Below are positions 1 to 61,694 of a DNA stretch of 64,000 nt, piece after piece; within the stretch, counting starts at the first letter, position 1; each line of letters starts with the position of its first letter. The translations under genes were made by a program, and so were the position numbers. The DNA comes from Physcia stellaris. Its lineage: Eukaryota; Ascomycota; Lecanoromycetes; Caliciales; Physciaceae. The stretch covers positions 62,001-126,000 of the forward strand of contig JABSSW010000076.1 of assembly GCA_018902385.1 (NCBI GenBank), read 5' to 3'. The notes under the pieces were generated by a model. That model saw only the letters and a list, made by a program, of their open reading frames with translations, made no database searches and had not been told where the DNA came from.

Positions 1-3000
1 ATTGCTGTGAAGACCTGGCAAAGGAGGTTGCTGCGATGAATTACCCTACTGAGAATTTAAAGTCATGTGAACTTGAGTCGTCGACTGCCGACAAGGCCGT
101 TGGACCCACTTGGATACACAGCTTGCCCCATGTACAACAGGAATCTCTTCTCAAAATACTCAATCGGATCAGAGTTGACCCTGAGTATCTCGCTAGCTGT
201 ATTTGCAAGTTGCCCTCTGCGGAGCTCATGGCTCTCACGTTTTCTTATCGATCCAAAGCTCCGGTTGCCTCTGTTCTCCCAGGGTACCAATCCAAAAAGA
301 GCCATGGCCGTCTCGATGTGCAGGCCAAAGAGTCAAATAGAGCTTCCATCCAGGATATACGAGGACTGTTCCAGGATGATCCACTTTATACTATACTTCA
401 TGGCCTTTTTGACGAGTCTTCCGGTCCAGGATCTTGGGAACACTGCCAGAGGATCGAAGTTCTATCCACGGTCTGTGCCAGGGTTATGGTAGGTGGTAAG
501 CGCGGCAGCGACGACCTTGTAACTACGATTCTTGACTCTTTTTCTGGTCAAGAAGCTATTGGTACACAAGTGAAGCTCGAAGCGTTTCTCCTAAATGTTG
601 TCCAAAATGGATCCAGCCTCCTGGACTTACCATTCGACTTCTTCTCGGGTGGATCAAAACAGCCAGTGGAGATTCGGAATGCCAACGCTGCAATCGCAAG
701 CTCAAACTTCTTCGAGAGATGCTCGGCAGAGTTCTTAGCGTTGCTCGGTGATGAGCTACATCAGGTCATACCGAGAGATCTTGTCGGGTTCGTTCAAGCC
801 GTATTAAGGAAAATTGAGGACCCAGTGCTTCGCACTCGCGCTAAGAATTTCATCGTGCCAAAGTGGTTTTTCTGCTCTTTTATCTCGAATATTCTCATAT
901 ACCCTGAGGTAAGTGTTATCAAAGCTCTCATACACACGAGCTGGGCTGACCACATCAATCAGAGTTGCGGCCTATTGATGAAACACCACATTGGGGACAG
1001 TGCTAGGCAAGGACTTCTCAAACCACTTGCAGCACGAGTGCAGAAAGTGGTCCTTGAGATTGTGTCGCCATGGTAAGGTCGACAGCCCCTAAACAACCGC
1101 TCTTTCATGCTAACTCATCAATCAGGAATCGCTATAGCCTCGTTGACTCGACAACAAGATCGACAATTGAAAAGATTTTCTCTTTCTTCGAACCAGCTAA
1201 GGAGGAAGCTACCGCTCGATCCAGGGGGAGCACGAAATCGGGACTTCCCAGTCAGCTGCAACTGCATTTCTACTTATAAGCCCACGCGTTGCCATAAGTC
1301 TTATTCGAGCACTTTGTCCGCCCGCGCCGCCATCACCGGCATCCACGGATGTCAGTTCAAGTGAGAACGCCTCGACGGCTTCTTCAATCGCTGCATCCTC
1401 GACTCACACATCGGGATCCTTAGGATTTGGAAGTGCGCCACCTTCTTCACTAGCTCCGAGTATTAGTGGCACATCAATGACAAGTCAGACCATGTCAAGC
1501 GAGTTTGCTTTCATCAGATCCGAGCCTTCTCAGGACCCAGTAGAAGATGAGACCGGCTGTGTTCACCCCAAGGCTGGACCGCCTGTCCGGGATAGTACTG
1601 ATACAGCACTTTTAGAAGCGTGCCAAACACTTTCTATTACCTTTGATATTAGCAAAGCAAGCTCCGCATCGTCAATTAGAGCCAGTGACTGGGCATTGGT
1701 CACGATTTGCAAAAATCAGTTGTGCCTTTCACCTAGCTCCGAGGATGATCAGTTGTTGGATGTAGGAGACACTCAAGCCGGCCCGGACATTCTAGACGTC
1801 AAATCTTATGAAGTTCTCTACGACCAACTTGACGACGCCGTATCCAAGGTCACTGCTGATGCGCCTCAAGAATCTAATTTCTCTGCTGTTGAGGAAGGTT
1901 TAGAAATCGATGTTTTCGCTACTTTGCATTCCCTTCTACGGTCCGCGATGGCTAGTTGCGAATCACAGCTTGACTATCGCGCCGCTTACTACTGGTGGCA
2001 AAACATAGAAACACTCCAGGAGCTGGGCCGGCTGGAAGGTTCTGAGATGGCCTTTGATAGAATGATCGACTACTTGGCAGACAAGAAGACCAACGCAATT
2101 GGAAAGGCTATCAAAGTAACCGAGCTTCTAGCAAACGAGGTTCACCACCTTGGGATGCTGGCAGCGCGCCAGAAACAGCAGCTTCAGGGCATGCAAGATA
2201 GACGTGGAGCGCTTAGGGACAAAATGTGGTACTTATCGGATGTGAAGCACTCAAAAGCATACGAGGATGCTTTGAATGTCACTCATGCCCTGAGGTTGAT
2301 GGTGGATTCCAAACGAACTTCGAGGAGGCCGTCCGCTACCACACAATGGGCCCGGCAGCGCTTACGTTCATCGAATACTAACGACAAATGTCAAATACAA
2401 GTGCTAGAATCGTTGGCTTCCTCCAAAGAATACGGAGGTCTTTCGAAGCTAGCTGATAACCAAGTCGAGATGATTACGCGATGGATGACCAAGCACAGCA
2501 TTGAGAACTTTTGCAAAGGAGAAGAGATAATCCATCGATTCTGTCATGAGGTTCAAAAGTGTGTCAACAAGCTTGCCGGGCCGGGTATGATCGATAGTCC
2601 TGTCTTGTGGTCGAGTGAGCTGTTCAAGCATGAGAAGCGACAATTGGATACACCCCGCGTCAATACTTCCATGATGCCAGGAGCCACTGCTATGGGTGAT
2701 CCTCGTCGGCTACCTTCAAGCGTCGAGCTCCCTCCTTTCAAGCCCGCATCATCGCCATCATCATCCACTCCTCTAAGTCTCCGCAATCTAGCAGTCAATA
2801 CACCAAAGACTATCAACGGCTTCTGGCAAGCTACAAAGCCAGCACCTCATTTCATGGAGGGCATGTCGTACTTCAAGCAGCCACAGCCCAATCCACCCGA
2901 GACTCCCACGGCCGTACTATCACCTACTTACCATCAACTTGGGCAACACTCCAGGGTCCAGCATTCACCCGGTTCTTCCACCCATGGCGTTCCGCCTAGT

Positions 3001-4347
3001 AAAGCCGTCGTGGAAGCGAGCAAAGCCTACAAGGCCTTCGCTGATCGTATCAGGACTACCATCACTGCTCTCTTACTCAGTGATCTTGGCTACATAATGT
3101 GGAGCCAAGGCAGTGAAACGGACATTTGGATCAATGGGAATAGGTCAGGAATAAACCCCCAAAGCAAGTCACTTGCGTACGTTACCCAGATCAAGGCCGA
3201 GCCACTTAGTATGGCATCGAGTTCTGCACTGAGTGACGCCTTGAGCGACTCGACCATCACATTCAGTCAACATGAGAGACCTGACGACCACACTCCGGTC
3301 CAGCCTATGCAGATTGACAAGTCGCCCCGTTCTGCTTCGTCAGATAGCAAGGCCCAAAAATTGCCTCACGACTCTAAACCAAAGCCCTCGCACAGAGAAG
3401 CTCCATTCCCTTTCTCCGATGCGTACAAGAGGCTATTAGCCAAGTTCTCATCATCTTCTGATCCATCGGTAAAACTTGACACCCTTGCCGAGCTAGAGTC
3501 CATTGTAATATTCTCAGTTAGCCACTCTCACAATTCTGGGGATGGATACCGAGGATCCATGTATAACGCGGTACCAACTAACAGCGCCCTTCGTTCACAA
3601 GGCTTAAACATTCCTCGAACAAAGGCTACAAGCTTGGAGGAGGTTGTGGCAAATTGTACCGAACGCCGGGCCGGCACGATGAGATACGCTGGCACAAACG
3701 CCTCCTCAAGAGGAAGCTTGAAGCAAGCATTCTACCCGCCTGACACCGATGCCGTAGTAGACGCCTTGCTCAACATCTTCCGCAACGACGAGCTCCGACC
3801 CACGACGCTATATCGCGACCTTCAACTTATTGCTACTTTCATACCGTCCGAGATATTGGATCAGAGCGCCAAAGGCAAAGCCTTCTGGGACGTTGGCCTC
3901 GCAGCACTAGCCTACAAAGAAGAACGCTGCGAAGCCATGATCCACCAAGCAAACCAGATCACCAACTACCATGTCTCCGTCAACAAAGACACGAGCAGCT
4001 TCATGAACGCCTATTCGCCTGACCTCGTCGACACGAGCCTGGGGGACGCCGCACAGCTCTTGGTCACCATTGCCAAAGAAGGCTCTCCGGTCGCTTGTCG
4101 CGAGCTGGGGCTTTTCTACCTCACCCATCCAGAGCTGTTGCCCCGCGTAACGCTTCCGTTCTCGAAGTCAAAGGACGTATTCAAATCGGTAACTTCGAGC
4201 GATCGCACGAGCATTGAGACTGGTGGTTTGGACCCTCTGACATTTGCAGTCGTCTTCCACTGGATGGAGCTCGCAGCAAATGGGGGGGACAAGGACGCGC
4301 GCAATTTTATAAGGGGCAATGGCGAGCTGAGCACTGCTCGGTCATGA
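1..4347 (+). CDS. Large conserved fungal protein of unknown function, 5' partial
   Basis: The reading frame is open from base 3 through the first ATG at 36, so the true start probably lies left of the window. Exon 1 ends at 1072; the intron is 1073-1125 (GTAAGG donor, GCTAAC branch, CAG acceptor) and exon 2 runs to the TGA at 4347. After the splice the frame must change by one base near the G5 run at about 1224-1228 (RSRG read into EHEIG). With one more G the whole protein, about 1,430 residues in view, is continuous. The N-terminal third is helical and hydrophobic; a WFF..FI..ILIYPE patch vaguely recalls RasGAP-type folds, but I would not name it so. The middle (about 2640-3420) is Ser/Pro-rich and disordered. 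The C-terminus has Sel1-like helical pairs (CRELGLFYLTHPELL, WMELAANGG). I do not recognise the family. Confidence 0.75.
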
Positions 4348-6032
4348 TGGGTAGTTTATTGATTTCAGGTCTTTCTCTATCTCTATGGATCCTTTAATTC
4401 TCTTTCGTGTACCAGTCTCTAGCACACGTATATACTCGCTTATTTCGGTTTTTCCTGGGTACTCAGGGCGGTAATCTTCTGGCATTTTTGTTGCAGGATC
4501 GGCGGCGATCAAATCAGGTAATTTGAGTCAAGATTCTGTGTATCTAGTTTGCGGAAGCAATCGTGACAGATTAGAAAGCCTTTGAAGGCTTCAATTTGAG
4601 AAAATGTAATTAATTCTCCCAGATTTTCCAAGCTCCCGAGAATATGCGCCCAGCAACTCAACTCAAACACCAGGAATCCTTTCCTCAAACATTGCTTTTG
4701 GGAATGTACAAGTTGTCAAGGCTCCACGCAAAGCAGGAATCGGCATAGATGGCACTTGTGAGTGATACATAATTTCGCAAAAAGGTGCTGAACATCTCCG
4801 ATGGAATAAATCAGGACATCCGAGCATATCAAGAATAACGAGATCCTGTCCAAGCAAAGCAAGAAATGTCCAAGGACGAAATGGTTGAGCGCCATTGACG
4901 TACCTGTGAGAGAGAGTTTCACCACTTCCCAAACCGGTTCCCGAGCACTTGGATCGATCGATAATGGCCTCTGCATTTGATATTCGATATGCTCAAGTTG
5001 ATAACGCTTAAAACCGATGCCAATGTAGCCATCCTCTCCCGAGGTGCTTTGTAGCACATTTGACATCTCCCAAGACACTTCAATATTGCCACGCTGATAA
5101 AGTCCTAGCAATGCCTATGATGAGGGCAGCTTGCCCGTTCCCGTCCAGGACGCGCTTTTGTAACAGACGGTAAGCTGCTGAGCGGAGCTCCCTGCCCGTG
5201 ACCCGGGCAGACGGTACAGCAGCGCTCCTGACGACGTCAATGACACAGTCACCATCATCTGAACACTTGGTGTAAGAACATAGTCATCATCAGTGGTGAT
5301 ATAAGTCACTGCTGACGATTCGATGAGGCAAAGGAGCATCGTAGATCTGTAGATGGTTCCGCGGACCGCCAGTCTCAAGGTAGTGACTAGACAAACTAGT
5401 ACCATCTTTTATTTGGATTCTGCGAACCTCTTACATGACAGGAGTAGGAGGATGAAGAATCATAAGAAAGTGCCTATCATTTACGAGCACCGGGCAGTGG
5501 GCCTGGTGATATTATGAACCGGCGCCTTCATAGATCGCACCTACAAATTCGCGTAAAATCGAGATGTCAACGACGATTGCCGCCATAGCCCGTGCTGTGC
5601 ACGTACTGCCGCCGATTCGCTGATATTCGCTCGTCCAAATAGTCATGAAGGTACGTTGCTAGCTTGGAATACTCCATCCCATTCACGAGCGTGGCATTTA
5701 TTGTGAGTGTAAAAGTATCTAAAATCTTGCAAGGAGAAAAAGCTCCGTATCAGTAGATTCTCCTCGTCTTCACATCCGAAGACTTGCATTTTTCACAAGT
5801 GCTCAGTGACGAGGCAAGACTTTTCAGCCTTGATATAGACCACATTAAAGGTGGCATTAGAGGCTGTGATTAGGCCTCTCCAAAAGACTCAGCTCAATGC
5901 GGTAGCGAGCATGTTACGTACATAAGGTTAGACTTCCTTATGAAGCCAGCCTTCCCTGTGAGACATATGAAAGGAGAAGATAATTATACGTCCACAACAC
6001 CTCGCTCCAAAATCCCGGCACTACACCGCAAT
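4348..6032. other. Gene-poor interval with one doubtful minus-strand ORF pair
   Basis: This stretch lies between the 3' end of the large unknown gene and the 3' end of the GH16 gene. On the minus strand two adjacent open frames (5115-5405, 96 codons; 4716-5111, 131 codons) meet across a stop at about 5112. The first has a hydrophobic N-terminus and reads like a small beta-rich secreted protein (SWTGTG, Cys and Ser/Thr rich). A decayed or mis-assembled small gene is possible, but no family is recognisable and neither piece has clear splice partners. The rest (5410-6030) shows nothing convincing. Confidence 0.3.
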
Positions 6033-16492: not shown

Positions 16493-18532
16493 ATGTCCAG
16501 TCCCTCACCCCGTCTAGAGGGTTCCATCTTAACAGACGATACCTCGTCTAATACCTTGACTGAGGTGCTCACATCAGGCACTGTGAGAAGCGCTGTATAC
16601 TGGCGCGTCGTAGCCTCCCACTCTCTCGTAACTCCCCAAGTTCTTCAGCATCACTATGCCGGCTCTGGCACCGTCCACGACCCTTTTAATGTCGAATTCA
16701 TCCCTCGCGATCCTAGGGATCCACTGGGCTTCAGCATGTTTAAGAAGTGGACCATCACCCTCCTCATCGCCTTTGCCACTTTAGCCGTCTCCTTCGCATC
16801 CTCTGCATATTCCGGGGGCGTGGAGGAGATTATGCGGGAATTTGATTGCACTGAGGAGGTCGCGGCTCTGGGTATATCACTCTTTGTGCTTGGATTTGCC
16901 ATTGGCCCGTAGGTCTTTTCGGAGCAATCATTTCCTTTTCCAGATTCGTTCTGGAGCTGTACCCACGACAAGACATCTTACAAGTCAACGCTTACCCCAG
17001 TCTGGCAATGCTGACTCCGAAAAATTTGCAACAGATTGCTCTGGGCTCCATTGTCTGAAATGTAAGTCATTCTCAGAGCCCGCGCTGCCTCCTCGGTATT
17101 CTATGATTTATTTCGACTCATTAGCCATAACCCAAAGCCGATGCTGACTTCGAACTTTATCCAGGTACGGACGGCAGGTGCTTTTATTGGAACTTATGGA
17201 GCTTTGACCGCGTTCAGTGCTGGAGGTGCTGGCAGCAACAGCGTCACCACACTGATCGTTCTGCGCTTCTTTGCCGGAGCATTCGGATCCTCCCCTCTTA
17301 CGAATTCTGGCGGCGTCATAGCGGACATGTTCCCAGCAAGACAGCGAGGTCTTGCTATGTCGGTCTTCGCCGCCGCTCCCTTCATGGGGCCCACGCTAGG
17401 CCCAATCGTAGGAGGCTTTGTGGGCGAGACTGTTGGCTGGCGATGGATCCAAGGGGTCATTGCGATCTTCACCGGTGTCCTCTGGATTGTAGGCACGTTT
17501 ACTATCCCAGAGACCTACGCTCCAGTACTCCTCCGCAAACGGGCCGAAGCCCTTTCAGCGCAAACAGGGCAAGTGTATCGCTCCGGACTCGAGATCGCCC
17601 GTGGGCCTCCGCCCTCAGTTACCGAGAGATTTAAAGTCGCGCTTTCCCGCCCATGGATCCTGCTTTTCCGTGAACCCATCGTCCTCTTCCTCTCGATATA
17701 CATGGCCATCATCTACGGGACCCTGTACATGTGTTTCGGCGCCTTCCCAATAGTCTACGCCGAGAACCGCCATTGGAGCCAAGGCATCAGCGGACTCGCC
17801 TTCCTCGGTGTCGCCGTCGGGATGATCGCCGCAGTCATCTACACCATTCCAGACAACAACCGCTTTATACGTGCCGAAGACGCCGCGAAAGCCAAAGGTG
17901 CGCGAGCAGCTCCTCCTGAGGCACGTCTCCCACCCAGCATCATCGGATCCATATGTATCCCAGTGGGATTATTCATCTTCGCGTGGACCAATTACCCGAG
18001 TATCCACTGGAGCGTCTCCATCATCTTTACCGCACCCTTCGGCTTCGGCATGGTTCTCGTGTTTCTCTCCATCATGAATTACCTGATCGATACCTACACC
18101 ATCTACGCAGCCTCCGTTCTGGCCGCGAACTCTGTCTTGCGATCCCTCTTTGGCGCTATATTTCCTTTGTTCACGACGTACATGTATGACGGCCTCGGCA
18201 TCCACTGGGCGACCAGTATCCCGGCCTTCTTAGCACTAGCGTGCGTCCCGTTCCCATTCCTGTTCTACAGATATGGACCGAGGATCAGGCTGAGCTGCAA
18301 ATACTCGAGGGAGGCGGATGAGGCAATGCAGGAAGCAGTTGAGGAGGAGGAATCGAGGCCGCAGGATGGGAAGAAGAGTAAGAGGCAAGATGAAGAGCCA
18401 GAGGATGTGGAGAAGGCGAGGAATGTTGAGGAGGGAGCTGGAGACGAGTCGGAAGCGGAGAGGAGCAGGAGTGTGGAGCACGAGAGAAGAAGGGAAACTA
18501 AAGAGAGAGACGTCGAGAAGGGCGAGGTATGA
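16493..18532 (+). CDS. MFS transporter, DHA1-type drug:H+ antiporter
   Basis: Three exons: 16493-16908, 17035-17061 (27 bp) and 17165-18532; introns are 126 and 103 bp. The tiny middle exon encodes LLWAPLSEM, the standard motif preceding YGR (motif A) in fungal DHA1 pumps. Exon 3 starts YGRQVL but must change frame by one base at the T4 run 17182-17185 to continue IGTYGALTAF; one extra T makes a continuous protein of about 603 residues. Family marks include DPFNVEFIPRDPR before TM1, NSGGVIADMF and the TM5 motif GPTLGPIVGG. Twelve membrane segments can be traced. The C-terminal tail of about 70 residues is unusually long and charged (Glu/Arg/Lys). Substrates of such pumps range from azoles to polyamines and cannot be told here. 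Confidence 0.85.
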
Positions 18533-26031: not shown

Positions 26032-27737
26032 TCATCCCATCCAACCGTGGTCTTTGGATTTCTTCTTTCCATGCATTGACGGCTTTGGAAGGGCATCCTC
26101 GCTTGGAATCGCCAGGAATCCTCCGAAGCCGTTACCCACCATGACGCTATCACGCGCTCGCTCTCCCCATTGCGGACCGAGCTGATGACTATTCCCGTAC
26201 AGACTTAGAGGGCGGGTTTTGGTTGCACTACCTCGACGATTCGCGGCCGTGGGCGGCGAGATGTGGGTGAATTGCCATTCCATTTCGACAATGGCCTTGC
26301 TGTAGAGATGCAATGGACGAGCCAATCCAGCCTCACGCGATTGCGTGCCATTCTGAGCGAAGGGAGCGGTAGGTGGGGGCAGAAGGAGATTTGGGAGGGA
26401 CGTGGAGAGGACGAAGAGCTCGTCCAGCGCTGGCAGCACTCCTTGCAGTAACGAAGAAGCAAGATACTCGTAAAAGCTTTCGGCGGGAGCACGCAAGGTG
26501 TGTGGGTGTCGCGTTGCGGTGTTAGGGCTCATAATCTCATAATGGAGACTCCTGATCGAGGGAGAGGCAAGCGGGGGCCTTGAGGCGGGCGAGAGAGCAC
26601 GCGAAACGGTCTCAGCGATATGAACTGTTTGGAGATACGGTGCTGCGGCGAAGACTTTGTGAAGTGATTCAAGATCAACACCTGTATTAATAAGTGTCAA
26701 ATCTGCCATGACCTCACGAGTTTCTGGGCGCGAGAGGTATTTCATTATGCCTTCGGTCGATATGGTGGGAGAATCTTCGAGTATGAGCTTGGTCAAAGGT
26801 GGAATCGAGAGCCTCTGAGGATTCGAGCCGAATATACAGTCGTCCAGTAGTGGTAGTCCGTGAAGCTTGAGTTCGTGGAGGATGGGGAATGAGGTTAGAG
26901 CATAGATCAGGGTTGAGGGCTCGATTGCCAGCTGGGATAGCTCCAATATTTCAAGGTTTTGCCAAAGTCGTGTTTGAGACAGCTTTGCAAAGCTACGTTC
27001 GGCACCACTGCCATACTTCATCTGACGTAAATCAGGGCATCGAGATTGCAATTCAGCTTTAAGCGTGCTTGAGCCCGGTTGGTCGGCAAAAAGGCCCTCA
27101 GGAAGATCAACGTAACGCAGATTCGCTAAGGCGGAGACGGCACGCGCGAGGTCTGCTTTGTTGGACTCTCTTGTCATATATGGCAGTTTGAAGAAATGGA
27201 CCTGGGCAGCCAGATATTGGTTCTCTCGGACCGTTCTGGATAATAGCTTCAGGCGCTCCGTTGGCGCATCTTTCGGTTCGCCATTGCGGTTTAGGAATGA
27301 CTTCCTCTTCCTCTTCTCTGCCAAGTCTATCTCGCGCTGGCAAAAGTGTACGGGATCGATTCGGACGCTGTGGTATCTGCGAATTGTTATCGTCCGTGGA
27401 GAAGCAAGAGCAACACAGTTGCCCCGGACTTACAAGAGCTTCTGGCCAGTCTCCCCCATTGACGATTCACCAAGATACACTGCGCTAAGTCGCGCAAGTC
27501 GCAAAGCATACAATCGCCATCTTGCATAGAGTCCTCCAGCTTGAGGTAGGTGTGGTCGCGAACATGCGGACAGACGTGGGCGAATATGTTTTCTAGGACA
27601 TTGCTCGGGAGTTTCGATGCCAGGCTTCTACCGCCAGAGCGCGCGGTTGACAGGGGATTCTGGAAGGCATCGAGGCCTGCCTCTGGTGTCTCATTTTTGA
27701 GCTTTGATTTGGACCGGATGTGGTTGAGGAATTTCAT
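26032..27737 (-). CDS. F-box protein of a conserved filamentous-fungal family
   Basis: Two exons, about 27737-27434 and 27376-26032, with a 57-bp intron (GTAAGT ... CGCAG). The N-terminus MKFLNHIRSKSKLKN is typical of the family; an in-frame ATG at 27758 would add seven residues. The F-box follows (KLPSNVLENIFAHVCP ... CDLRDLAQCILVNRQWGRLAR). After the splice the frame is off by one: RSS should run into LYHSVRIDP. One additional T at the TT just before the donor (27434-27435) would restore it. The rest (LPYMTRESNKADLARAVSAL, LRYVDLPEGLF) forms degenerate leucine-rich repeats. Such proteins recruit substrates to an SCF ubiquitin ligase; the target is unknown. The Ser/Pro-rich C-terminus ends KSKDHGWMG. 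Confidence 0.8.
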
Positions 27738-28460
27738 GATGAAAGGGGGAGCCGGCATAGGAGAAGCTTAATAATGGGCAGTGGGGGTGTTCCAAGGTCA
27801 GTAAAGACGCGGGGCTGTCTTGGCGCTGCAGGGTTTCAGGGGCTTTTGCGGGCTTGAGGTCGCCGGATGTTGTTGGGTTCAGGCCAGCGAGCACACCAGT
27901 GTTCCAGTTCTTCCTCAGTCCAAGGTCGTCTGGGAGAGTCGGTTCTGGGGGAAGATGTGGGCTTTTGAGCGGATTCTCAATAAAGGTAGAGACACCGGGT
28001 GCTTACCGTCATCCGTCTTTGATTCATGTGTGACCTGTGCAACGAATTCTCAGCATCTTCACCATGGATATATTATACAGACCGGAACACGTCATAACCA
28101 GCGCTCTCCCGTCACTTCGCTGGCCCTGATGTCTTGTGTCGGGTACCTACTCGTCGCGCTGAACCATGAATCATGGACGTCTTTGTCGGCAAAGCAGAGG
28201 AAGCGTTTGTGTGGGGTCTGTAGGATAAGAATTGCAACTTTTGATCCAGCCCTCTAGCATTTCCGTGTGGACCGGTTTGAGTTCATGGCAGAATCAGGGT
28301 TTTGGCGATACAGCTAGATTGCTGTCTCGTGGAAACTGTCTGTCCAGGATGGAAAATTCCTAATTTATAATCCCGAACCCCAAAAGACCTCAGTAAGTCC
28401 CGGTATCGGTTTCAGTACAGATAGGCCTTTAATCGCCTGCTGGAGATAGCTTTTTGCATC
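27738..28460. other. Intergenic, no gene seen
   Basis: This 720-bp stretch holds the F-box promoter and the 3' flank of the RmlD-like gene. The 145-codon plus-strand frame at 27820-28257 has no domain-like features and overlaps promoter sequence. Confidence 0.5.
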
Positions 28461-29654: not shown

Positions 29655-30556
29655 TCTGCCAGGGGTGTAGTATGTATGCAATTGGAACGGCGCGATGCTT
29701 TTACATTCATGGGTGGACCTGACAAAAGACAGATGTCATGTTGCCAACTACATGCAGTCATCATGCTGAATTCACGTGCTCACTCTTCTCTACAGCCAAC
29801 CTCAAGGGATAGCTTGCAATGAAAAGGTTTCCAAAAATTACTCACCGATCCGAAGACCAGTGAGATCAGTCAATATAGTTGTAGTTTTCAACTAGCAAAA
29901 ACGCGATCTCGGACGAATCCTCACTGATACGCGTAAAGCCCTTGCACTCGGTTAAGGGAAAAAAGTTAGAGATTTGAGGGGGTGGTAGAGCAATAAGTAC
30001 ATAGAGCGCCATGCCGGGTAATCGAGAGTGAAGTAGGTTTCGCGCTAACGGACTTCGATATTTTCCTCACGAGCCACTCCGAGTCCTAACTGAACTCATG
30101 GGCAGACTCCCTCCTCATTCATCAGCCACAATCTTCATGGACTGTGAACGGAAACTGGGGATTTACTTTGCAACTCTCAAAACGGGAGAAAGGAAGAAGA
30201 CGATGAAGAAAGCGGGCAACGAATGTTCAGCGCTCAGTGCCGCGAACTCAAGGGAAAAGGTCGCTTCAAGCATCAAAAGAGCATCACATGTGGAGTCAAA
30301 GAAGCCCACTCGACCGTGTGGGCTGGGAGATTACAGATAAAGCTCCCTTCTATGAGAGTCAGAGAGCTAGTCTCCAGTCTCTGGCCATCCTCTTAGCCCT
30401 CATACAATGTAAGTCAACAAAGCCAGTCACACCTGGGCTTGGCCTTGCGACCTTTCGTTGTCCATGATATCGGTGGGAGTATAGCAGGCACTTACAGCCA
30501 ATCTTTCCAATGCAGTGACGCCTTCGGAGGGGCTCGATCAAACACTCATGGACTGA
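29655..30556. other. Intergenic, no gene seen
   Basis: This 900-bp region lies between the RmlD-like promoter and the monooxygenase 3' end. The small plus-strand frames at 30098-30467 are Lys/Ser-rich and look random. Confidence 0.5.
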
Positions 30557-37935: not shown

Positions 37936-40077
<2,142 letters not shown>

Positions 40078-44946: not shown

Positions 44947-46851
44947 AAATGATTGGTTATCGAGCTATTCAGCAGGACGATAATGCACTGCGGGTCTCCT
45001 ATAGACTGAGCAAGTAGCTGTAAGGGATGTGGGGGAAATCAAAGTGCTTTGTGTGTTCTAATGGTCTTCCAATGCCACCATTGGATGCTCAACGACCTTT
45101 CGTAACAGACGTTCGAGCACAAGCGTATATTCGAAGATTTCTCTGTGAGTGATAAATATCTTTGGAAGTCAATGAGGATTTCACTGTGGGCACAAATTCA
45201 TGGAGTAATAATAATTTAACGTCAAGGTTATTCGACAAATAGTCGTCAATAGGGAAATAATATTCGACCTACCCAGCTCGCTAGGTACTAGCAGAAGCGG
45301 CGTCTTGGCGGACATGGTGGAAAGCCAACCACCAGGCTTTCCATCTTCACTTTTTTTCCTTCCCCAACAACGACCTCCAACTCAAATCAATGCCAGCCCG
45401 ACTTGATCGTCCTACTCGGCTGGCATTTCTGATGGACAGGTCGAGATCAACTATGCCGCTTTGAAAACCATCACCATGAGGGCCAACAACACTGAGCTTC
45501 CATGACACGGCGATGACCTGAATGTCGGAACAGGCTTTTAGGGTGTAAATCGTTGTCGGTTAGTTCCAGGTTGCACTGACCTTTCCTCTCTCCCGGTACC
45601 TCATGAAGATAGACTCAGTTCTGGTAATCCGACAGTTCAGCCGCGTATACACTCTTGCCTGGTGCTTGGCGCTGGTTGAGCATGATGTCTCAAGGCAAAG
45701 TCTGAATAATATGTCATTATTGAATATTGCATGACTGTTACACTGTTATAATTGAGAGATTACTGACCTGTCTCTTCATGCTTAGGTTTTCAATCGAACC
45801 TCACCTCTCCTCATGCAGCATTTCACGCGCTCGAATCTTTTCTCGAGAACTGTACATGACCACATCAAACTGGGTTTAGGACTGTATGAATTCCTCATAG
45901 TCTCAAACCCCCTTATATCAATGTTATCTTCAACTGTGCCCGGATAATTTCAATAAAGTATTTAATGTGGCTGTTCAATGAGCGGCCATCCAATTTGACG
46001 ACTATCTCGCAACCCTAGCGGCTACCGCGATCATTCTGTTGGCGCATGATCAAACAATAATCTCACTGACCCAGCCCGCGAGAACCGTGTTCTGGAATCA
46101 TCAGCACTGTAAGGCAGATGAGATAGAGAGTGCTAAATAATCACGATCGTATTCCTAATTACAATCAAGGTACTGGCAGAGTGGCAATCCCTGATATAAA
46201 TTTTCAACATATCACATTTTGACACAAAGTTTATCGAGTGACAGCTTCAACGGTCTACCTAGGTCTAGTCTCACTAGTCCAACTTGATCTCAAAGCGCTA
46301 ATCGCGCTTGCTTATTCCGCTTCATCTCGGGCCGCCATACGTCACAATATATGTAATTTGAGCCAATGTGTAATATATGAATGAAATGCGGATAAACCAG
46401 TCCATAATACTAAAACCCACTGAACTCTCCTCTTGTCCAATGGAAAGTACTTCCAGCATCAGATTCAATTTTATTTTCAGCATAGCAATATGCGACGCCC
46501 GGGTCTGACAGTTTAATATACGTGAATGGAGCTCATTCTGCGGCCCACGGCGTTTCCCAACTCCAGTGAAGCAGGGGGCCAGTACAAGAGAATGTATGCC
46601 AAATCAGAAGATGAACGAAGGCTGCTTGGTGATTACGGGTATTCTTATCACATTCAATGAACATATGATCATTACTGATCCTCCATCGTAGTGATTCACG
46701 GCACAGTCTATCAGCGGTGTCAATCCCCCCGCCAGGGCAAGCTCCGTCATTAAAGATTATGAAAGTAAGATCATCCATTCAGAGGTAGTTTATAGGTAGC
46801 TGATGCTAGGCCTTGTTCTTTGTCCAGAGGATACCAGCGGGAGTCCGGCCA
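44947..46851. other. Long gene-free region upstream of the SUMO protease
   Basis: This 1.9-kb stretch is AT-richer than the genes, especially 45680-46500, and carries stops in all frames. It lies between divergent genes, so both promoters are here. A likely 3' splice site (branch near 46796, TTTGTCCAG at about 46819-46827) suggests that the SUMO protease has an untranslated or short coding first exon within it; a GTAAGA donor near 46768 would fit. An 81-codon minus-strand frame at 46533-46778 looks random. Confidence 0.5.
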
Positions 46852-49800
46852 ATGAACACGTTGACAAAGACCAATCACTCGAGGCCGCAGCATGACAAAA
46901 AGCTAAGACCCCCAACGGTTCCAGAGAATGGCAAAAGCCAAGTCTTACACCTCGAAACAATCAGAGGTAGTAACGTTCGGCAGCCTCCTCTAGCCACCAG
47001 TGAGGATGAGATCAGTGAAGTACCACCAGCAAAAAGGCGGAAAACGGAGTCAAAAGGCAGCAAGCTTGATAACTCCTCAACAAGTAGTGATGCTCTAGAT
47101 GGCGTTGATCCATACATTGTAGGCGAAGAACCGGTCATATTACTTTCACGCGACAGCCAAAGGCCAAGTCGGACAAGATCTTGCCATGGCCAAGGCCAAT
47201 TGATCAGTCATCCAGGTTCTGGTGTCAATGGCCACGTAAAGGAATTCCAGAAGGTGGAAGCAAGGATGAGGAGTGACCCTCTAAAATCAAATAAGATGGC
47301 GCGTGAGAGTGGTCATGCTCGGGGCGAACGTTCGAGTCACTCCAAGTCTGCAATGTTACCGATCGCAGGTCCTCCTACCATACCGGATCTCATAGACCTC
47401 TGTGATGATGAAAGCCATGAGAAGACGCATCACGACATATCATTGAAACGAAGAGAACAAAGTATCAAGAACCGCTCTGACCCGATGCGCAAGGAAACGG
47501 GTCCAGGAGAATTACCACAGTTGCGGCCGCAAAGCACGGCGACACAATCTCGCCATTTTGCAAAGACCAATTCCATAGAACGAGCTAAGAGCACACCTCA
47601 TAGGCCGCGACTATCATCTACGACATCGCCCAAAATCCAGAAAGAGGAACGGAGACTCAGTGACCAGTTTAGGGCGACGGACGGCAAGAGGCGGAATACA
47701 GAGTATAGTTCAAGTCCAGACGAGCTTGCTGGCGATCCCGCTCCAAAGTTGGACCAAGCTTCGCTTCTACCCAAAGTATTACTCGGAGGGACCAATTGCC
47801 GAAGCGCTAGCCCAACAAAGTCATCATCGTCGACTCGCAAGGGATCTCCAATAGGAGAAAGTACCGGGGGCTTGGCCCCAAGCAACGTTCCAATATCAAC
47901 ATTCAGTCGCTCATCAGTGAACAAAGCACTTCCCAGAACCTCAAACCGTAGAGGCAGAAACAACGTGGAGTCTGAGCCATCGTGGGGGGCCCCTTTAGTA
48001 ATGGTCAATGTGGGGGGCAGCATGCTCAGTTCAGCAGGCTTAGGCTTGCAACTAAATCCCAAAACTGAGTCGTATGAAATTATTAAAAGTGGTCGTAAGA
48101 TCGTGAACGACGATGTCACTCTGCAAATTCAGCCTCAAAAGCTGCTGAAAGTGACATGGTCAAGGTCTAAGCCGCAAGTCCGCTTCTCGTCATCGAAAAG
48201 CAACAACTGCGATCACATATTAGACCTCGAGTTGTGCAGTGCAAAAGATTGCCAAGACCTACTGAGCAGATTGCAAAATGAGTGTTCGCACGACCTGCAA
48301 GTGGAGAGTAAGGATGGGCAAGTCGGACCTCGAGAAGACCGTTTGGGTTAATCGCTGACGTTCTCTAGGGATTACCTTGAAAAGCTGTTTCAAAAAAGAT
48401 TCCAGGAACAAATGAAGAGCCAATCATTCCGCAGTAGCCGTGCTGTCGATGAAGGTGAAGATCTTGATCTCGCTGCTCGTAACAAAGCGAATAGGCGTAC
48501 CAGCAACAGTGTACCGGACTTTGTGAAACAAACAAGCACCAAGAGAAGGCGCGTAGGCCGAAATGTTGACCAGATGAAGATCGGTAAAGAGGAAGTCGAA
48601 CCTTCTCATTCGGCATTGTTCAGTCGAAGTAGCTCCCCGAACGCCCCAAAGGATCAAAGCGTCCTAGAGTATGGAGTAAGCCCATCAAGGATACCCGAGA
48701 TCACCCGGAGCCTGCAGCCTAAGAAGCACAGTACTTACTCAACAAGGTCACATGTGACAAACGAGCTTGGAGCAAGTAGTGTGTGTTCGCCTCTCCAAGA
48801 TAGTATGTCTATTCATAAGATGTCTCAAGTTCATGACCTTGGCGAGCCATGGCGCAAACCATTAGTCTATCCAAAGAACGGAAAGAAGAAATCTACAGTC
48901 GAGTGGCTGGATCTTGAGCGTCTGAATGAAGGCGAGTTCTTCAATGATACGTTGATCAGCTTTTACCTGCGGTTTTTGGAGCAGAAACTTGAAGAGCGGA
49001 ATCCCGAGATGGCTAAAAGGATCTACTTCTTCAACTCGTTCTTCTATGCTAGTTTGACAAAGACTCAGAGAGGCAAAAAGGGTATCAATTACGAAGCGGT
49101 ACAAAAGTGGACGAGAGGCGTGGATATCTTTAACTGTGACTTTGTTGTTGTACCCATCAATGAGTCACTTCACTGGTACTTCGCAGTGATATGCAATCTA
49201 CCTTCGCTCAACCGCGGCTTTAGTCTTGATGACACTGCTACTCCGCCACCCCTTCCCAGTACGGATCCTGTACCAAAAGAAGATCAAGCAACCAGCACGA
49301 GCTACCCAATAAGTGGATCCTCCGAATTACTCACTCGTGCGGCAGCTATCCAGGGTACGATTGCAGATCAGACCTTTATACCGCCCACCGAAGAAGATGC
49401 GAGATCATCTCTCGCAGAGTTGAGTTTGGACAACGAGGAACAACCTGACGAACAGGGCATATTAGATGCACAAATTAAGGGCGAAGAGGCAGAGGCTTCC
49501 AACCATCTTTCAAAGCAAGAAGCGCAGAGTCAGGCATCTCCTCGCAAACATGAGGCTGCTGTTGGTTCTTCGGTTGAATCCGAAAGCCCTTTAGCTGTCT
49601 CGTCTTGTAAAAAGAGGAAGAGAAAATCGTTTGCGACAGGAAAGAAGCTTGATCCTACAGAGCCGGCCATTGTCACCTTTGATTCACTCGCTGTGGCCCA
49701 TTCTCCAACAGTGCGGATACTGAAGGATTATCTCAAAGCAGAAGCGCACGAAAAACGCAGCATGACATTTGATGATAGTCAGATTAAGGGTATGACGGCT

Positions 49801-50661
49801 GTGGGAATACCCAAGCAAGACAACTATTGCGATTGCGGACCGTATCTGCTTGGGTACATGGATAGATTTCTTGAAGATCCAAAAGAATTCATAGAAAAGA
49901 CTATGCGAAAACAGCTAAACCCGGAAAAGGATTGGCCACGACTCGACCCAAGCAACCTTCGCTCGGGCATGCGTGATCTTGTACTTGATCTTCATAAGGA
50001 ACAGGAGGACGAGCGAAAAGCAAACACGAAGAAGTCAAGCAAAGTTCAACACTCCCAAAAGCCGACTTCCAGTCTGTTACAAGATCATCCGCATGAGACG
50101 AAGAGGGATGGGCTTGCACTCGTAGCTGAGACATCAGGGAAAGCCCCATCGGCTTCCCAAGGCGGACCGAAGCCTGCCAGCATTTGTAAGACAAAGGATC
50201 AAACTTTACAGCACAGTCTCCGGGTCGATGACGATGCAGAACGGGCTAAAATCTCGTTTTCAAGGGGCAGGTCAGGGGAGGGTGCCAAAGCTAGTATTTC
50301 CGCTTCAGAAGAATCACATCCAGTAGTGATCGTAGATAGCCAGCCAGCCGAAAGCCAGTCACCTCGCCAGCCCGCGGCTGTTGCTCCCATCAGCGCCCTT
50401 CAGGCGGAAGAATCCCCGGTCGCGTTGCCGTCTACGATACAAGATTCTCAACCACAGGAGACGTTTCAGTCCTTGGAGGATTCTCAGCATGGAATACGAA
50501 CTCCGACTCCGCATCCGGGTCCGGTCTCTCCAGGGCCAGCCCCTACAAGTCCTGTCCGGACTGGACCAGTCTATTTGCAGCCCAGGAGTGAGGAATTGAG
50601 GTGGCAGGATCCACAGCAGCCCAAAACCAGCCCAAAATTCCATCTCCGGGTCGAGATCTAA
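46852..50661 (+). CDS. Ulp2-type SUMO-specific cysteine protease (C48)
   Basis: Exon A runs from about 46852 (ATG; frame open upstream to a probable acceptor at 46827) to 48307. Exon B runs 48369-50661. The donor AGTAAGG at 48307-48308 and the acceptor CTCTAG at 48368 leave the frame one base short; an extra G in the GGG at 48368-48370 fixes it. A weaker donor at 48282 would also fit. About 1,250 residues. Ulp2 removes poly-SUMO chains in the nucleus. The protease core begins STVEWLDLERLNEGEFFND. It has the Trp-His pair ESLHWYF, the catalytic Asp in VTFDSLAV, and Gln/Cys in KQDNYCDCGPYLLGY. An insert of about 150 residues, rich in Ser/Glu, splits His from Asp, as in Ulp2/SENP6-7. A SUMO-interaction-like IPDLIDLCDDE lies in the N-terminal arm. 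The C-terminus is Pro/Ser-rich. Confidence 0.87.
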
Positions 50662-51059: not shown

Positions 51060-54000
51060 TCAGAAATCGATTTTCCACCCCTTCCCAACGCCCACACCTG
51101 GATCTCTCACCACAGCCCAGGCCGCCTTGCCACCTTCTCCTTTCCAATACCTCAGTCCTGCGGATTTTTCGCCCTTCCCCTCCTCGGAGACACGAACGCT
51201 CGTACGTCCTTCCCATTGCGACGGCGCGTTGATCACAACGATTTTCTCGATCCTTACTTTTTCCATTGACTGTGAATAGGCCTTGGCCTTCTTACTTTCC
51301 TTACCCGGCGGCGTTAAAGGTTCTGACCTCAAATTACCCAAGTGCGTGTCCGAATTGGTCCCAGAAGCAAAGATAAATTTCCGATGGATGAAAGCGCCTT
51401 CTTGATAATCGAACGTCTCGCCGTCATCCACATACAGCTCGCCTTCAGCTCGCAGCTCGTCTGCCCCACCAAGAACGACAACAAGCGTGTAGGGGTCCCA
51501 TTTCATCAGCCCACTACTTTTACGAGCGCGTTCTTTTCGAGGAAAGATATTGCCGCCTTGCATAAGCAAAGGGATTTTGTCTAATGGTGCGTAGAACGGG
51601 ACAGCCTTGCCGGCGCCTTTATAAACAGTGTAGTCAAAGTAGTCATAGTAAGTCTCCCTCGCAGGAAGGTAGATATCAACACTCTCTGCTCCTTCGCTCA
51701 CGACTGGCTTGACAAGCAAACCAGTACTGCCAATGTAGAACTGATCATCAACATCAAAGGCTGCTTCGTCACTGGGATGGACATAGTAGTGCGGGCGTAT
51801 GATGGGTGAGCCGTCGACTGAAGCTTGGTGGAAGGCGGTATACCACATTGGTAGCAGCTGGTACCGAAGTCGTATTGCACGAGTAATAATCCCGGTATAC
51901 GGTTCCCCCGGAATGTATGGCTCTCTTCTTCTGGTATCGATGTGCGCATGGGCACGGAAGAAGGGGTAGAAAATGCCAGCTTGGTACCAGCGTGTCAGAA
52001 GGTCCTTCTCTGGGTTTCCGAAAAATCCGCCAACGTCTGCTCCCGAGAAGGGAAATCCAGCTATGTTGTTAGCCAAAGTCATCGGAATGGAAGCGGCGAG
52101 ATGGGACCATGAGGCTTGGTTATCACCCGTCCACATAGCGCCCATGCGCTGAGAGCCGGAAAAGAACGAACGGGTAAGAACGAAAGGTCGCTTTGGTGTT
52201 TTCGGATCGCGCTGCAGAAGAGCATTATAGGTGGCATTTACAAAAGTAAGGCCGTTAATGTTGTGCAAGTCCCGGTGCTCCCAGTTCCCGTAATGAAGGT
52301 TATCCTTCGGCATGGTAGTTTCAGGCCCGTTGAAAACGGACGGCTCGTTCATATCGTTCCAGATGAACAGATTAGGCGCAGTGCCTTGGAACGCCTTGTA
52401 TTGGAACAGAGATGCCCACCATTTCTGGGCCTCTGGTGAGAAGCAATCAATCCAATGTGCAGAGCCCGGCCAACACCAACCTTCGTAGATGTCGTTGTCT
52501 TTGTTCTTGACAGCAAAAGATTTAGACTTCAAATCGTCGACCACCGCATAATCGTGAGTGTTTTTAATGTGGGGATCAATCAACACTACCAGCTTGCGCA
52601 AATGGGAATCGAGCTGAGCTTGCATGCCCAGTGGATCAGGGAACGTATGGGGGTCCCACTGAAAATATTTCTTCTCGTTGGTATACTCTAGATCGAGCCA
52701 GATGATATCATATGGAATATGATGTTTATCAAACTTGCGGTCAACTTCCCGCACATCATCATCGGAGATGTAATTCCACCTACATTGATGATAGGCTATG
52801 GCGAATTGCTGTGGAAGCTGGGTGTAGCCAGTAAGGTCACTATAAGAATGCACAACGTCCTTAGGGGTCGGGCCGAGGAAGACGAAGACGTCCAGAAGGC
52901 CAGCTTCTGAGAACCAATGTGTCTGCGTTTCTGTTCTGCCTCCAATGCCGAGACTCAAAGGGTTACTGGAAACCTTGGACTTGACAATATCTATCCAGGT
53001 TTCGGCTGCATTCAGCCAGAACACTCCAACGGTCGAGTCCTTGCGATGCGCTTGCATAAAAGGGATTGCGCCATAGAGTGTCATGGGACTATCCATTTCA
53101 TATTCGAAAACATCGCTGTTGTAAAGCCTGTACGGTTGCTCAAAGTTACCCGAACCGCCACTTTGATGCATTAGCTTGTAGACTCTCATGGGATCCTGGA
53201 AATCGTACTGACCGAGTCTGCTTGAGTGAGAGAGGGCCTGTATGCTGCGGAATGCCAAAAACGTGCTCATAACCCGGGAACGCAATGTCGAGTCCTACAC
53301 TCTCGGGCCCCTTGGGCTTTGAGTCGGTATTACCGCCGAAGGACTCTTCCCACCAAGTGCTCTCATCTTCACCGGCGTCGGTGCTCTCTTGCTGTGACTC
53401 CGCTTTGGGCTCCTCGCCCTCTTTGGCTTCCTTGACCTCCTCGGCGGGCTTTTCAATTTTAGGCCGCCAATGCTCCATATTGAGAAAACCCTTGCCATTA
53501 ACGCTAACATGAATCTCACCATCACGCCAGAAGTCAATAGCAAAGGGCGAATGTTTTATTGCAGCCTTGTAACTCTTTCCTGGTCCGTAGGTAACCGTAG
53601 TCGCTTCGGGGGCCATCGATGGTGAAGCACGCTTGTCCGCGTTCAACGCCCCAACGATGGCCCATTTGGAGGCTTCATTGTATCTTTCTTTACGAGCGAC
53701 ACTGCCGTGCCGTAGCTCGATATCCCCCTTTTGTCGCTTCTCCTCATCAATTGAAACCCGGGCAACGCCTGACTCGAGGAAAGCAATAGTCAAAGGAAAA
53801 GCTACAGGCCCGTAGCCTTCTCCCAGCGATTTGGAGACTATCCCCTTCAAGACGCCATTCTGTACATTAATGGTCGCGGGATCTAACATGTATGGACTGG
53901 CCCACTGATCACCTCTGGAGGTTGCTTCATCGGCAATGGCTCGATTCCGCTTGCAGAAGCCCGATTGGTCGCATCGCTTGAAGTTTTCGTGTTTTACGGC

Positions 54001-56185: not shown

Positions 56186-59100
56186 TCATGGGGCTTGGTT
56201 CAGGTAGTCGTCAATAAATCTCCCCGTCTCTCCTTCGTCGTCTTCTTGTCTCCCGTCCTCCAGTTGCTCGACCACCTCGTTCCTTGGCCCTACGTCATCA
56301 GAAGGATCTGTCACGAACTCTGCAAAGACCTGATCCATGCCATTTGAGGCATTATTAGCGTGGTGGGCAGGACTGTAGAAATGCCCATGCTCATGAGGTC
56401 CGTCTCGCATTGCCGCAGCAAAATGACTGTTTTGTGGGCTATACAAGCTCGGATCAGCCGAAGGGCCAGAGGCGTGACCCATCGGCGAACGTGGAGAGAA
56501 GTCAGGCGAGCCGAGAAGTCCAGGGTGGTGGTTGCGAGGGTGTGAATTATGAAAATACGGGCCAGAAGCAAAAGCCGGGGAGTTAGGATGGGAATGTCTC
56601 TGAGAGTGGCCTTGTGGCATATAAGGCGTGTATGTAGGATCGGCGTGGTTGGTAATGATGGCTGTTGGCAGCCGGTGCGTGTTAGAATGAGGCTCTCCCC
56701 CAGTACCGGTGGAGGATGAGTGCGGAGTGTCGGATCGATTGCGACGCTGTGGAGCTGGTTGCAGGGGTTGATGACTCTTGTTCGACTGAGCATCACTAGA
56801 CTTGCGGGGTTGTTTGGGAAAGGTATGCTGTTTTGTACGGAATTGAGGAGGGAGATCGGCGGGATCAGTCACGCCGTGCTCAGCCATCAGCTTCTGCTGC
56901 TTGGTTGGACGGGCCTTGCGAGTAGAGAGAGATTTTTCAAGAACAGGAGGGGCTGTTGGGGCCACAGGAGCCCATTTGTGAAGTTCCTGACGGAAGAAAT
57001 TCGTTTCGTAGGACAGAAGGACCTCAGCACCTTCGATCTTGCGAAGGTAAAACCGCTGGGTTGTGACTTCTTCAGGAGTCGTCATGACCGGATTGATGTA
57101 TGGCCGCATGAAATCACGGAATGTTTGCGCCGTGTTGATAATATCATCAAGGATATCTTCTTCTTCGGGCTGGAACGGCAGGAAAGGAATCTCAGCCTGC
57201 CACTCTTGTAAATCCTCGAGCTTTGGGCGAGCAGCGTCTCGAGGTATCTTAACGCGCCAGTCACAGATGGGGCAAGTAAACCTATCGTCTTCCTTGATCT
57301 TGCCGCGCGCAATCTTCAGGCAGCGACTATGATACCTATACAGGCTATCAGTAAACCTATTTCACGAATACGAAGCAGATACTTCTACCGACCATTCGTG
57401 ACACAGCTCGCACTCAATCATTTGCCCAGCTTCTGTTTGTCGGCACATGCAGAAGGTCTCCTTGGTCGATTTCTCCTCGCCGGCTTGCTCGTCTTCCGGA
57501 GTATTACTTCGGGAGGCAGGCTCTACAGGCATTCGTGGTTTGTCTGACAATTCGAAACAAGCCTCGTTATGTTGCTTAACATAGGTCATGTGAACTTGTA
57601 AAATGTGCAGAGGTGCATTAGCCTTCCCAAAAAGTTTTTTTCCCTTTCGCATCCAATCTTCGTGGCGCTTCAATTCTTTCTCAAGATCAATCGTACCAGC
57701 CGGCTTACTGTTGAGTTCGGACAGCGACTCAAGGACTTCGCGGACGTCTTTGTATTTAGGGCGATTTCGGAATTCGGGGTCCTTGCACCTCTCATACATA
57801 GACACGATCTGTCTGTGCGCTTCTCTTTGCTTGGTCAAGATCGCGTCAACCGCAGCTAGAGTCTCGTGCGTCACAGGTAATGAACTTGCTCGAGCAGACA
57901 AGGCCTCGAGCTGCTGATAGTGTACACTCTCAGCTGCCATCAGCTCTTTGGCCTTAGACTCCCAGAGTTCGCCTTGCGTCTGCTGTTCCCTAAGGTGAAG
58001 CAGAAGCTCACTGTGTTCCGGCATACCTACTTCGGAGCCCCGCCGGATGAGATCAGTGACTTCTTCAAGGGTTTGGGATTGTTTCCGTTTATCACGAGCT
58101 TCGTCGTTCCACTTCATTTGCTGGGCCACTTTGTCCAGTCTCTCGACTTCAGGTATGTCAACGTTGAAGCCCTTACCCAACTCCACAAGATCTTCGATCT
58201 CTGCGGTTGATCGTAGACCGGGGCTCGAGAGGGCGCTCTTAGCGTTACGCTGAAAATCTGCAATGGCTTCAGAGCGTTCTGAGAGGGTGGTGATTTCGGG
58301 GCAGTCGAAGGAGATTTCCTCAGCAGCTTTGAGGAGCCGGTGAATATTATCAATCTTCCTCAGCTCGCGCTCGCGCTCCTCCTGCTCAGCGACCTTGTTG
58401 AAATTGCTCTTCCGCCATAGCCGATCGTTTTTTCGTCGGTTTTGCTGCTTGCGGGTTATGTAGTTGGTTGCCTCATCGACCCATTCGTTGCAGCGGGCTA
58501 CAAAATTCTTCAAATCAGGGAGACCTGGAAGGTCCCACGGTATGCGCTCTCCTTCATTTACTAATCCCCGCAGCACTTTAAGGGAAGGCCGAGGCTCGTC
58601 TTCCAGCGCCTTGTTCAGTTTCTCTTGCCATGCTTCAGGCGCATTCGCTCGATCGACGACTTTTTGTACTGCACCTCGCAGAGTATTATCAGCGAGTCGA
58701 TACAGAAGAGTGTGATCCGGACCACGGAGTCGTTGCTCTTCAGAGCCCTCACAACACTCGTAGCTCCCGGCGTGCAACAAGCACATTACTTTTGAGCTTT
58801 TTAAGCAACGAAACCGTGAAAGATAGCTATACGCTTTGCAGTAAGTGCACTGGTACTCGACTTCTGGAACATCTTTGTCTTCGATCTCGAAACCAAGCTT
58901 GCAGGTGACTTCAGACCCTGTTCGGGAGCCATCCATTTGACATCGATGATCACTGATATCTTGGTGTCGCTTCACAAGCATTGACCGCTGTTCCAGCTCA
59001 CGGTCACTCATGCGTTGCAGGGCGGGACCCAGCCATTTCGCAGTTTTGATACTGGTGTCTCGACCTGCCGCTGTCATCAGAAGCTCGTCATGCGAGAAGC

Positions 59101-61694
59101 ATGGCTGCTTCCGAAAGTCTTGAAGTCTTTGCACCCCCGCCGCACCAAATGGCTCCCAATCCGCGGGAGCGAAGTTGACTGCTTCATTGAAGTTGAAACC
59201 ATGGTTGAAGCCCGCATGGTACGCTTGCGGAAACGTTATCACAAATTGACCCGCGCGCTGATCTAGGGCATAAACATCCACGCCAGCCTTTTTGAGCTGA
59301 TCCGGGGGCAGGAGGGTGACTAGCTGAAACAATAGATCAGGCTGAGATTCAAATAATTCAGGCACAGCTGCCTTCATTGCTTGCTCGAATCGCTCGGCAT
59401 CGGCTGCCGGGATGCAGTACCACGTCTTTGTGGCGCCGAAATGCTGGTAGTTCGCTGAGTAACTATAATGATCCTCGTTATGCCAACAGAAGGTTGAGAA
59501 GCACATGCCAACGTAGAGCCACGGGACAGTCATGCCTGAGATGTCCGACTTGATATGTCGAAACAATGACTCTGGATGAAGTGGCAGGAGATTCAGATTC
59601 CACAAATCAGTAGAATACGGATTCAGTGCGTTCTTCTCCATGGTAGGGAACCCGCTCCCGTGAGTAGTAGAGTGAATGTCGGCACCGTACTCGACCTCCA
59701 CAACTTCAGTAACACTCTCCACCAAGCGCCAGAATTCTCTTTCGACATCGTCTTCTGTGACTACACGTTTGCAGTTCAGGACCGGATCAAATTGCATTTT
59801 CGGTGCAAAATAGCTATCTTTGAACACCTTTGCCTTCTCCTGGAATTGGCGTAGCGAATAAATGCCGCCCTCCTCGAATCCGAACTCACCTGTACCGACA
59901 AGACACCTCGGACAGTGCCAGTCGTGCATGATGGGAATTTTGACGGGAGGATCCACGCAATACCTGTGATAACCGTAGTCGCAGCCTTCGCAAATAAGTA
60001 TTGACTGGCGATCCTCGCTTTTGCCGCATGCTTCACACATCTATTTTGTACAGTCAGCAGTCTCAATCAATGCAATGGGGGTCGCATCCTACCTCTCCTG
60101 GTTTTAGGTTACCACGCTCAGTGGCTGTTCTAGGTGTCAATGGCCGAAGTGTACTCATATGCGAGCCAACAACGGTGGGAGGCGCTGGATAATATCAGCA
60201 AAGGGCCATATCATACGTCAAGCCATGTGGGGGCTGGGAGAGTCACCTTTCTTTAGTCGCTTACTCCGACGACCGTTTTCGTCTTCTCCATCAGCGCCAA
60301 GAGCAGTGTCGATCAACGGAGGTCCATTAGGGCTATCGTCGCTGGCTGGTCGCTTCAGCGGAGTCTGATTTGGGCAGTTCAACTGTCCCGAGAGAATAGC
60401 ACCTTGACTTGATCGTCCACTAATATCTTGTGATTGGAGAAAAGTTGATCCTGAAAGGAGCGCCATACTGGTCGATGCTGTGTCATCGTTGTCGCGTTTG
60501 GTTAGTGGAACCGGGGACTTTACGGCCTGGAACGAGGCTGGAGTCATGTTGACAGCTGTAAAGCCACCAGAGTTCACTGCAGTAAAGCCTGACAATGCAA
60601 TTGGTGGTGACTGTATCGATGGAGGGGATGCAACAGCGGAAGAGATGTCCAGTGGCGGACCCTTGCTAGGCTGCTCAGAAGCTTGAATTGATACATTGAG
60701 GGCAGCTGAGGCGCGAATCGCTGGCGACTCATCTCGGAGACTTGACGGAGTGTCCTGGTAGGATCGTTTCATAGGCGAGCTGGCGGACGAAGGGGTAAAA
60801 GGTCCACCGTATTCAAACTCTAACTGTTGCTGTACCGCCGGTTTGGCAATGCGCAGATACTCTTCATAGGGAAATAACCACTTTTGGAACGAGTTCTTGA
60901 GGGATGTTGACAACGACGACATGATCTTGCCACTGTACCCAAGATCACGCCCAATTTCTGCCCATTTTTTACCTTTGCATACCTTCTCGAAACCACCTCG
61001 AGTCTCTACTGCCTTTTTCAATTTGTACAAATCTAGGGGACGTTTGTCGACACTTGGAAAGCGGTTCAGATTCACACCATGTTGTTTATGGAATTTTTGC
61101 AATTGGTCCATGTAGTTGAGATTTGTGCGAGTTCCTGGCTCAAGTCAGCTTCCCGTCGCTGCGCGGGTAAACACTTCTCGGCGGGAGACTGACCTCCTTC
61201 AACAGAATTCAGCTCTTGGCGTCGAGTGCGAAAGTGAAATTTCTGTATACAAATTAGATATTCCAAGCCGTGCAGGCTACCACCGTTTGACTCGGAAGAT
61301 ACCTCGGTGTCAACCGCGAAATCTGGCTTCCAGCTATCTGGGGTATTATCTTGACCGCTCCGTACTTCTGTCCCTCGCTGGCGATTTTCATGATATAGCG
61401 ATGAGGATCCGCGAACTCCTCTTCACTTGGTCTGAATGTTGGCGCATCTTGTAAGCCATGAGGTCTTATCCTCTTTCGCGTTTCTCGAGCAGCTAGCGGT
61501 TGTCCTTTCCTTTCAACTGTGGACATATCCAAGGGCGGAGCCCGTCGAGCGCTGAGGGGAATGTGGGGCGCATATACCGGGTAGATGCCATTGTTGGTCG
61601 ACGTGGCGAGATTGATTTGGAAGCTGCCTGTTGAAGGTATCGTCTGGGTCAGGGTGGTTGAAGCACTCGCTCCAAGGGTGGGAGGGACCACCAT
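56186..61694 (-). CDS. KDM5/JARID1-type histone H3K4 demethylase
   Basis: Six exons: 61694-61303, 61242-61194, 61134-60247, 60184-60093, 60040-57393 and 57335-56186. Introns are 52-62 bp, and the total is about 1,739 residues. It removes methyl groups from H3K4 using Fe(II) and 2-oxoglutarate. Domain order is complete: JmjN (APTFRPSEEEFADP ... DSWKPDFAVDTEKFHFRTR), ARID (YMDQLQKFHKQHG ... GKKWAEIGRDLGY), PHD1 (CEACGKSEDRQ), JmjC with iron ligands HNE (about 661-663) and the His of YHAGFN (about 749), C5HC2 zinc finger (YQCTYCKAYSYLSRFRC), PLU-1 helices, and PHD2 (CMCRQTEAGQMIECELCHEW|YHSRC). In JmjN the frame is one base short at the C4 run (plus-strand G 61340-61343); a fifth C gives IIPPDSW. 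The C-terminal 250 residues are His/Pro/Ser-rich. Confidence 0.92.

Follow-up and report, generated by a model that had tools for sequence, protein, structure and literature searches.

Single-base losses that break genes in a Physcia stellaris assembly very probably reflect residual consensus errors, mostly at short homopolymers

The window analysed here is a 64,000-nucleotide stretch of contig C76 (C76:62001-126000) from a 43.97-Mb assembly in 147 contigs. No N was present in any of the loci read, and the assembly is contiguous and was probably made mainly from long reads. Among the window genes, which have short GT-AG introns, five with interrupted reading frames were examined, together with genes outside the window (Table 1). 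When the local intron was removed, by hand and by script, all five window genes left a remainder of 2 modulo 3, and in each the downstream frame lay one base off the upstream frame. The first-pass annotation, made from the letters of the window, had claimed that each of the five lacks one base, and both this count and its coordinates proved right. The window also carries a full-length U4 spliceosomal RNA gene (Rfam RF00015, 96.4 bits).

Table 1. Location of the genes and of their frame breaks. Plain coordinates are window positions; C and L numbers denote contigs and sampled loci.
Feature	Location	Strand	Break or remark
Large-protein gene	1..4347	+	Start upstream of the window, frame continuing upstream into C76; exon ends at 1072, followed by intron 1073-1125; one base lost within 1201-1276, an interval that holds G5
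MFS transporter gene	16493..18532	+	Within 17175-17188, T4 run
F-box protein gene	26032..27758	-	At splice junction around intron 27433-27377
U4 spliceosomal RNA gene	29800-29953	-	
Ulp2-like SUMO protease gene	46810..50661	+	At splice junction around intron 48308-48368
KDM5-type histone demethylase gene	56186..61694	-	Within 61331-61345, C4 run
PA-domain gene	C8 (L015, near 9.79 kb)		One base short; own family match for upstream piece only
SSZ1-like Hsp70 gene	C8 about 120800 (L033 about 900-920)		One base short
LHS1-like Hsp70 gene	C39		Hsp70 positions 1-177 in one frame, 186-417 in another
AP-3-beta-like gene	C22 about 51611-51767 (L019 about 1611-1767)		Two losses at G5 runs or one gain

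Family matches flank the break on both sides in the Ulp2-like and KDM5-type genes only. In the KDM5-type gene, JmjN ends at the break and is followed by ARID, JmjC, zf-C5HC2 and PLU-1. In the Ulp2-like gene, which also has a Peptidase_C48 match, the break falls inside a PH_35-like domain (PH_35 being the fungal deubiquitinating-enzyme PH domain), between two matches below the cut-off, one to PH_35 positions 41-109 on the upstream side and one to 118-190 on the downstream side. The MFS and F-box genes were matched on one side: the MFS break is followed by a match to MFS_1 profile positions 71-347, and the first exon by itself gave no Pfam match, while F-box and F-box-like matches lie upstream of the F-box break and just an LRR match below the cut-off lies downstream. 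On the other side of these two breaks, the family fit is presumed from motifs of the families. The large-protein gene has no Pfam match on either side, and its break was identified from open frames, codon statistics, a frame-switch model and the remainder of 2 modulo 3.

Frames such as these might be closed by unrecognised or non-canonical splicing. At each place, every GT-AG pair spanning 40-199 nt was scored as an intron candidate, and each of the five had some pairs that close the frame (5 of 57 in the large-protein gene, 2 of 19 in MFS, 6 of 20 in F-box, 9 of 47 in Ulp2 and 6 of 20 in KDM5). Moreover, a model in which frameshifts were costly took other introns for the MFS, F-box and Ulp2-like genes. 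However, the intron used was the top-scoring pair at four places; at the F-box gene it was second of 20 (8.8 vs 9.0), and the top-scoring pair there also leaves 2 modulo 3. The best frame-closing pairs scored 3.1 to 6.8 nats below the introns used: 4.7 vs 11.5 for the large-protein gene, 7.6 vs 13.4 for MFS (intron 17062-17164, which leaves the frame one base short), 3.4 vs 8.8 for F-box, 4.1 vs 9.5 for Ulp2 and 4.7 vs 7.8 for KDM5. The alternative acceptor in the Ulp2-like gene drops the first five downstream residues and costs 6.7 bits of PH_35 (16.6 vs 23.3), and the one in the MFS gene adds a stretch that brings no gain in family score (106.4 bits with it, 107.1 without). Splicing would also leave the breaks of the SSZ1-like and LHS1-like genes unexplained, as neither could accommodate an intron at the break. 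We thus consider it very improbable that splicing closes these frames.

One-base losses are not confined to the window. Three firm breaks were found outside it, in the SSZ1-like, LHS1-like and PA-domain genes, each a loss and each at a run of 4 to 6 identical bases. The two pieces of the SSZ1-like gene match chain 7z3n_D at positions 86-260 and 266-532, and the SSZ1 label is backed by the name of the solved chain 7x3k_B. The labels LHS1 and AP-3-beta are our own assignments and say more than the underlying matches to Hsp70 and Adaptin_N do. The SSZ1-like and LHS1-like breaks came from a family scan for Hsp70, and the PA-domain break from the frame-switch model. The family scans scored 9 of 342 candidates for MFS and 11 of 34 for Aldedh, and every candidate for TCP-1 (24), HSP70 (22) and SNF2 (47). 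None of the nine scored MFS matches contained a stop, and no break was seen in TCP-1, SNF2 and the scored Aldedh candidates where adjoining pieces were listed, the gaps fitting introns or the frame being common to both pieces. On these grounds, most genes are intact. Junction gaps in these scans were judged by hand, many matches covered part of a profile with no listed neighbour, and two HSP70 genes (C20, C15) have wide gaps, so that breaks could be missed in these places.

The AP-3-beta-like gene can be read as carrying two losses or one gain. The frame-switch model called one insertion at three of its four settings and two deletions at the fourth; the model of that fourth setting kept to two deletions over the whole penalty range of -6 to -14, yet it had been trained on that very reading. 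We prefer two losses, since the 50-residue stretch between the two sites resembles a fungal AP-3 beta motif and both sites lie at G5 runs.

The frame-switch model is homology-free, carries equal penalties for losses and gains, and had a training set of 211.3 kb of gene-rich sequence, the window included; an earlier version with 435 introns had called zero breaks. Four settings were run, and the counts and the detection test refer to the setting that admitted breaks most readily (frameshift -8, intron -11). Three of the five window deletions were called at one setting and two at the three others; the KDM5 break was called at all four and the F-box break at one, and the MFS and Ulp2 breaks were called at none. 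Of 240 planted deletions and 240 planted insertions, the model called 177 and 182, respectively, correctly, indicating that gains would have been seen had they been present.

At the permissive setting, the model made 12 deletion-type and 5 insertion-type calls, plus 3 insertion-type calls on C76:18500-62000, all checked by hand and not blind. Four deletions were upheld (three in the window and the one in the PA-domain gene), as were, ambiguously, the two in the AP-3-beta-like gene. Rejected calls comprised one deletion and two insertions in a transposon-like element near 131.8-133.7 kb of C76, a second deletion in that element called at other settings, deletions at L015:6829 and L025:3076 and insertions at C76:45715 and C76:47515, all four of which are introns, and a deletion at L016:8819, where the frame simply continues. 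A deletion called at C76:61697 at a laxer setting is likewise a continuing open frame, and an insertion at window position 53214, called at one of the four settings and at looser penalties, is an intron by hand reading. The element itself, at about 131800-133750 of C76, consists of retrotransposon-like reading frames with stops and adjoins a gene-rich block.

The upheld tally came to 8 losses and no gain, with the AP-3-beta-like gene as either two losses or one gain. This tally leaves out calls that have no family anchor and were neither upheld nor rejected, namely four insertions (L008:7793, L009:3201, L016:566, C76:50820) and two deletions (L008:7280, L026:5725); a deletion at L025:470, called at other settings only, was likewise neither upheld nor rejected. 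Five of the eight losses came from the first-pass annotation, which leaves three firm losses and no gain found independently of it. That annotation had seen losses only and had proposed that losses be compared with gains in further genes of the same assembly; on our sample this count gave three firm losses and the ambiguous AP-3-beta-like gene, under balanced detection, in agreement with its view apart from that one possible gain. Losses therefore outnumber gains, as expected of homopolymer undercalling, and the breaks are spread over unrelated genes on C76, C8 and C39 (and C22 if the AP-3-beta-like gene is counted).

All five window losses had also been placed at short homopolymers. Runs of at least four bases were found at three of these sites, those of the large-protein, MFS and KDM5-type genes; at the F-box and Ulp2-like sites, which lie on splice junctions, the exonic run is only two bases. 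No single run exceeded chance (P of 0.153 for the large-protein gene, 0.112 for MFS, 0.948 for F-box, 0.979 for Ulp2 and 0.123 for KDM5). Across all tightly placed sites, compared with random coding intervals of equal lengths and leaving out the 76-base interval of the large-protein gene, runs of at least four occurred at 7 of 9 sites against 1.05 expected, and 0 of 20,000 draws reached 7. Without the AP-3-beta-like sites, the figures were 5 of 7 against 0.80 (P about 0.0003), and for the window sites alone 2 of 4. These intervals were hand-chosen after the sites had been seen, which biases them somewhat toward runs. The homopolymer part is thus weak when just the five window sites are considered; the sites outside the window are needed to make it clear, with runs then enriched above chance. 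G or C made up 6 of the 8 runs of at least four (large-protein and AP-3-beta-like genes included), whereas in coding DNA runs of at least four are more commonly A/T (643 vs 472 for G/C).

Homopolymers are also favoured by natural indels, and the genes could be real pseudogenes in which a natural one-base deletion has set decay under way. The frames are otherwise long and open, however, several of the genes match families around the break, and each carries a single lesion in the sequence read, the AP-3-beta-like gene excepted. Moreover, the SSZ1-like and LHS1-like chaperones, which are also broken, are poor candidates for chance pseudogenes. Because the genes are otherwise open, unrelated and partly housekeeping, pseudogenisation fits poorly, and we rate it as improbable as the splicing explanation.

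A missing base is also what a -1 shift would compensate, so that the frames might be restored at the ribosome, by programmed -1 frameshifting, or by slippage in the transcript. The break of the SSZ1-like gene indeed contains an in-register A_AAA_AAC heptamer (register assigned by hand), which is most simply read as an undercalled A run. In a search for X_XXY_YYZ with Y = A or T, this was the only in-register heptamer among 10 sites: eight had none, and GGGAAAG at the LHS1-like site is out of register. The genes are not united by function, and the runs, at 2-6 bases, are short ones for slippage. Compared with -1 programmed ribosomal frameshifting, the likeness lies in the direction of the shift needed, and the differences in the nine sites that lack an in-register heptamer and in the unrelated genes. 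Recoding of either kind is even less likely than splicing or pseudogenes. Least probable of all is that the fungus truly has many genes one base short that are recoded by -1 frameshifting at short homopolymers; if this were true, the SSZ1-like gene with its in-register A_AAA_AAC would be a case in point.

Residual single-base consensus losses, mostly at short homopolymers, thus fit better than unusual splicing, pseudogenes or programmed frameshifting, and we hold that they very probably break these genes. The feature is most likely a sequence artefact and not biology. The consensus would have dropped single bases, mostly within runs of four to six identical bases, and each loss would put one otherwise intact gene out of frame. 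The frames, the matches to families on either side of several breaks, the surplus of losses among the sampled genes and the enrichment of runs were observed directly; that the actual DNA carries the extra base is what we infer. The earlier preference for homopolymer undercalling in the assembly over pseudogenes or ribosomal frameshifting is thereby supported. PMC12007338 ties deletion errors to homopolymer runs, with lengths of four to five bases the most frequent, and reports insertions as well. The likeness to the homopolymer deletions of long-read drafts described there lies in single-base losses, mostly in runs of 4-5, that break otherwise intact genes; that paper concerns other genomes and tabulates insertions too, whereas our sample is small and no insertion in it was firmly upheld.

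Outside the window, the breaks found and upheld with the model number two or three (the AP-3-beta-like gene counting as one or two) per 69,834 predicted coding bases, which at a detection of about 74 percent corresponds to a break about every 17 to 26 kb of coding DNA, an estimate from very small numbers. Some genes in the assembly would accordingly be split or truncated in an annotation, and such genes could pass for pseudogenes or gene loss.

The genome is bipartite, with gene-rich DNA of about 50 percent GC and AT-rich blocks of about 20-36 percent GC, mostly 22-30, a composition that is presumably the product of repeat-induced point mutation. Taken with the short GT-AG introns and with protein families such as PH_35, this composition points to a filamentous fungus. 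Long AT-rich blocks adjoin gene-rich DNA at C76:1-18500, at about 126000-130000 and beyond 136000 of C76, and were also seen at sampled loci L012, L017, L018, L023, L027 and L031. Within the 96 kb of AT-rich DNA at the sampled loci, 486 A/T runs of 6, 315 of 7 and 95 of 8 were counted; the runs of 8 fall below the expectation of halving, which might be another sign of run compression, with repeats possibly contributing.
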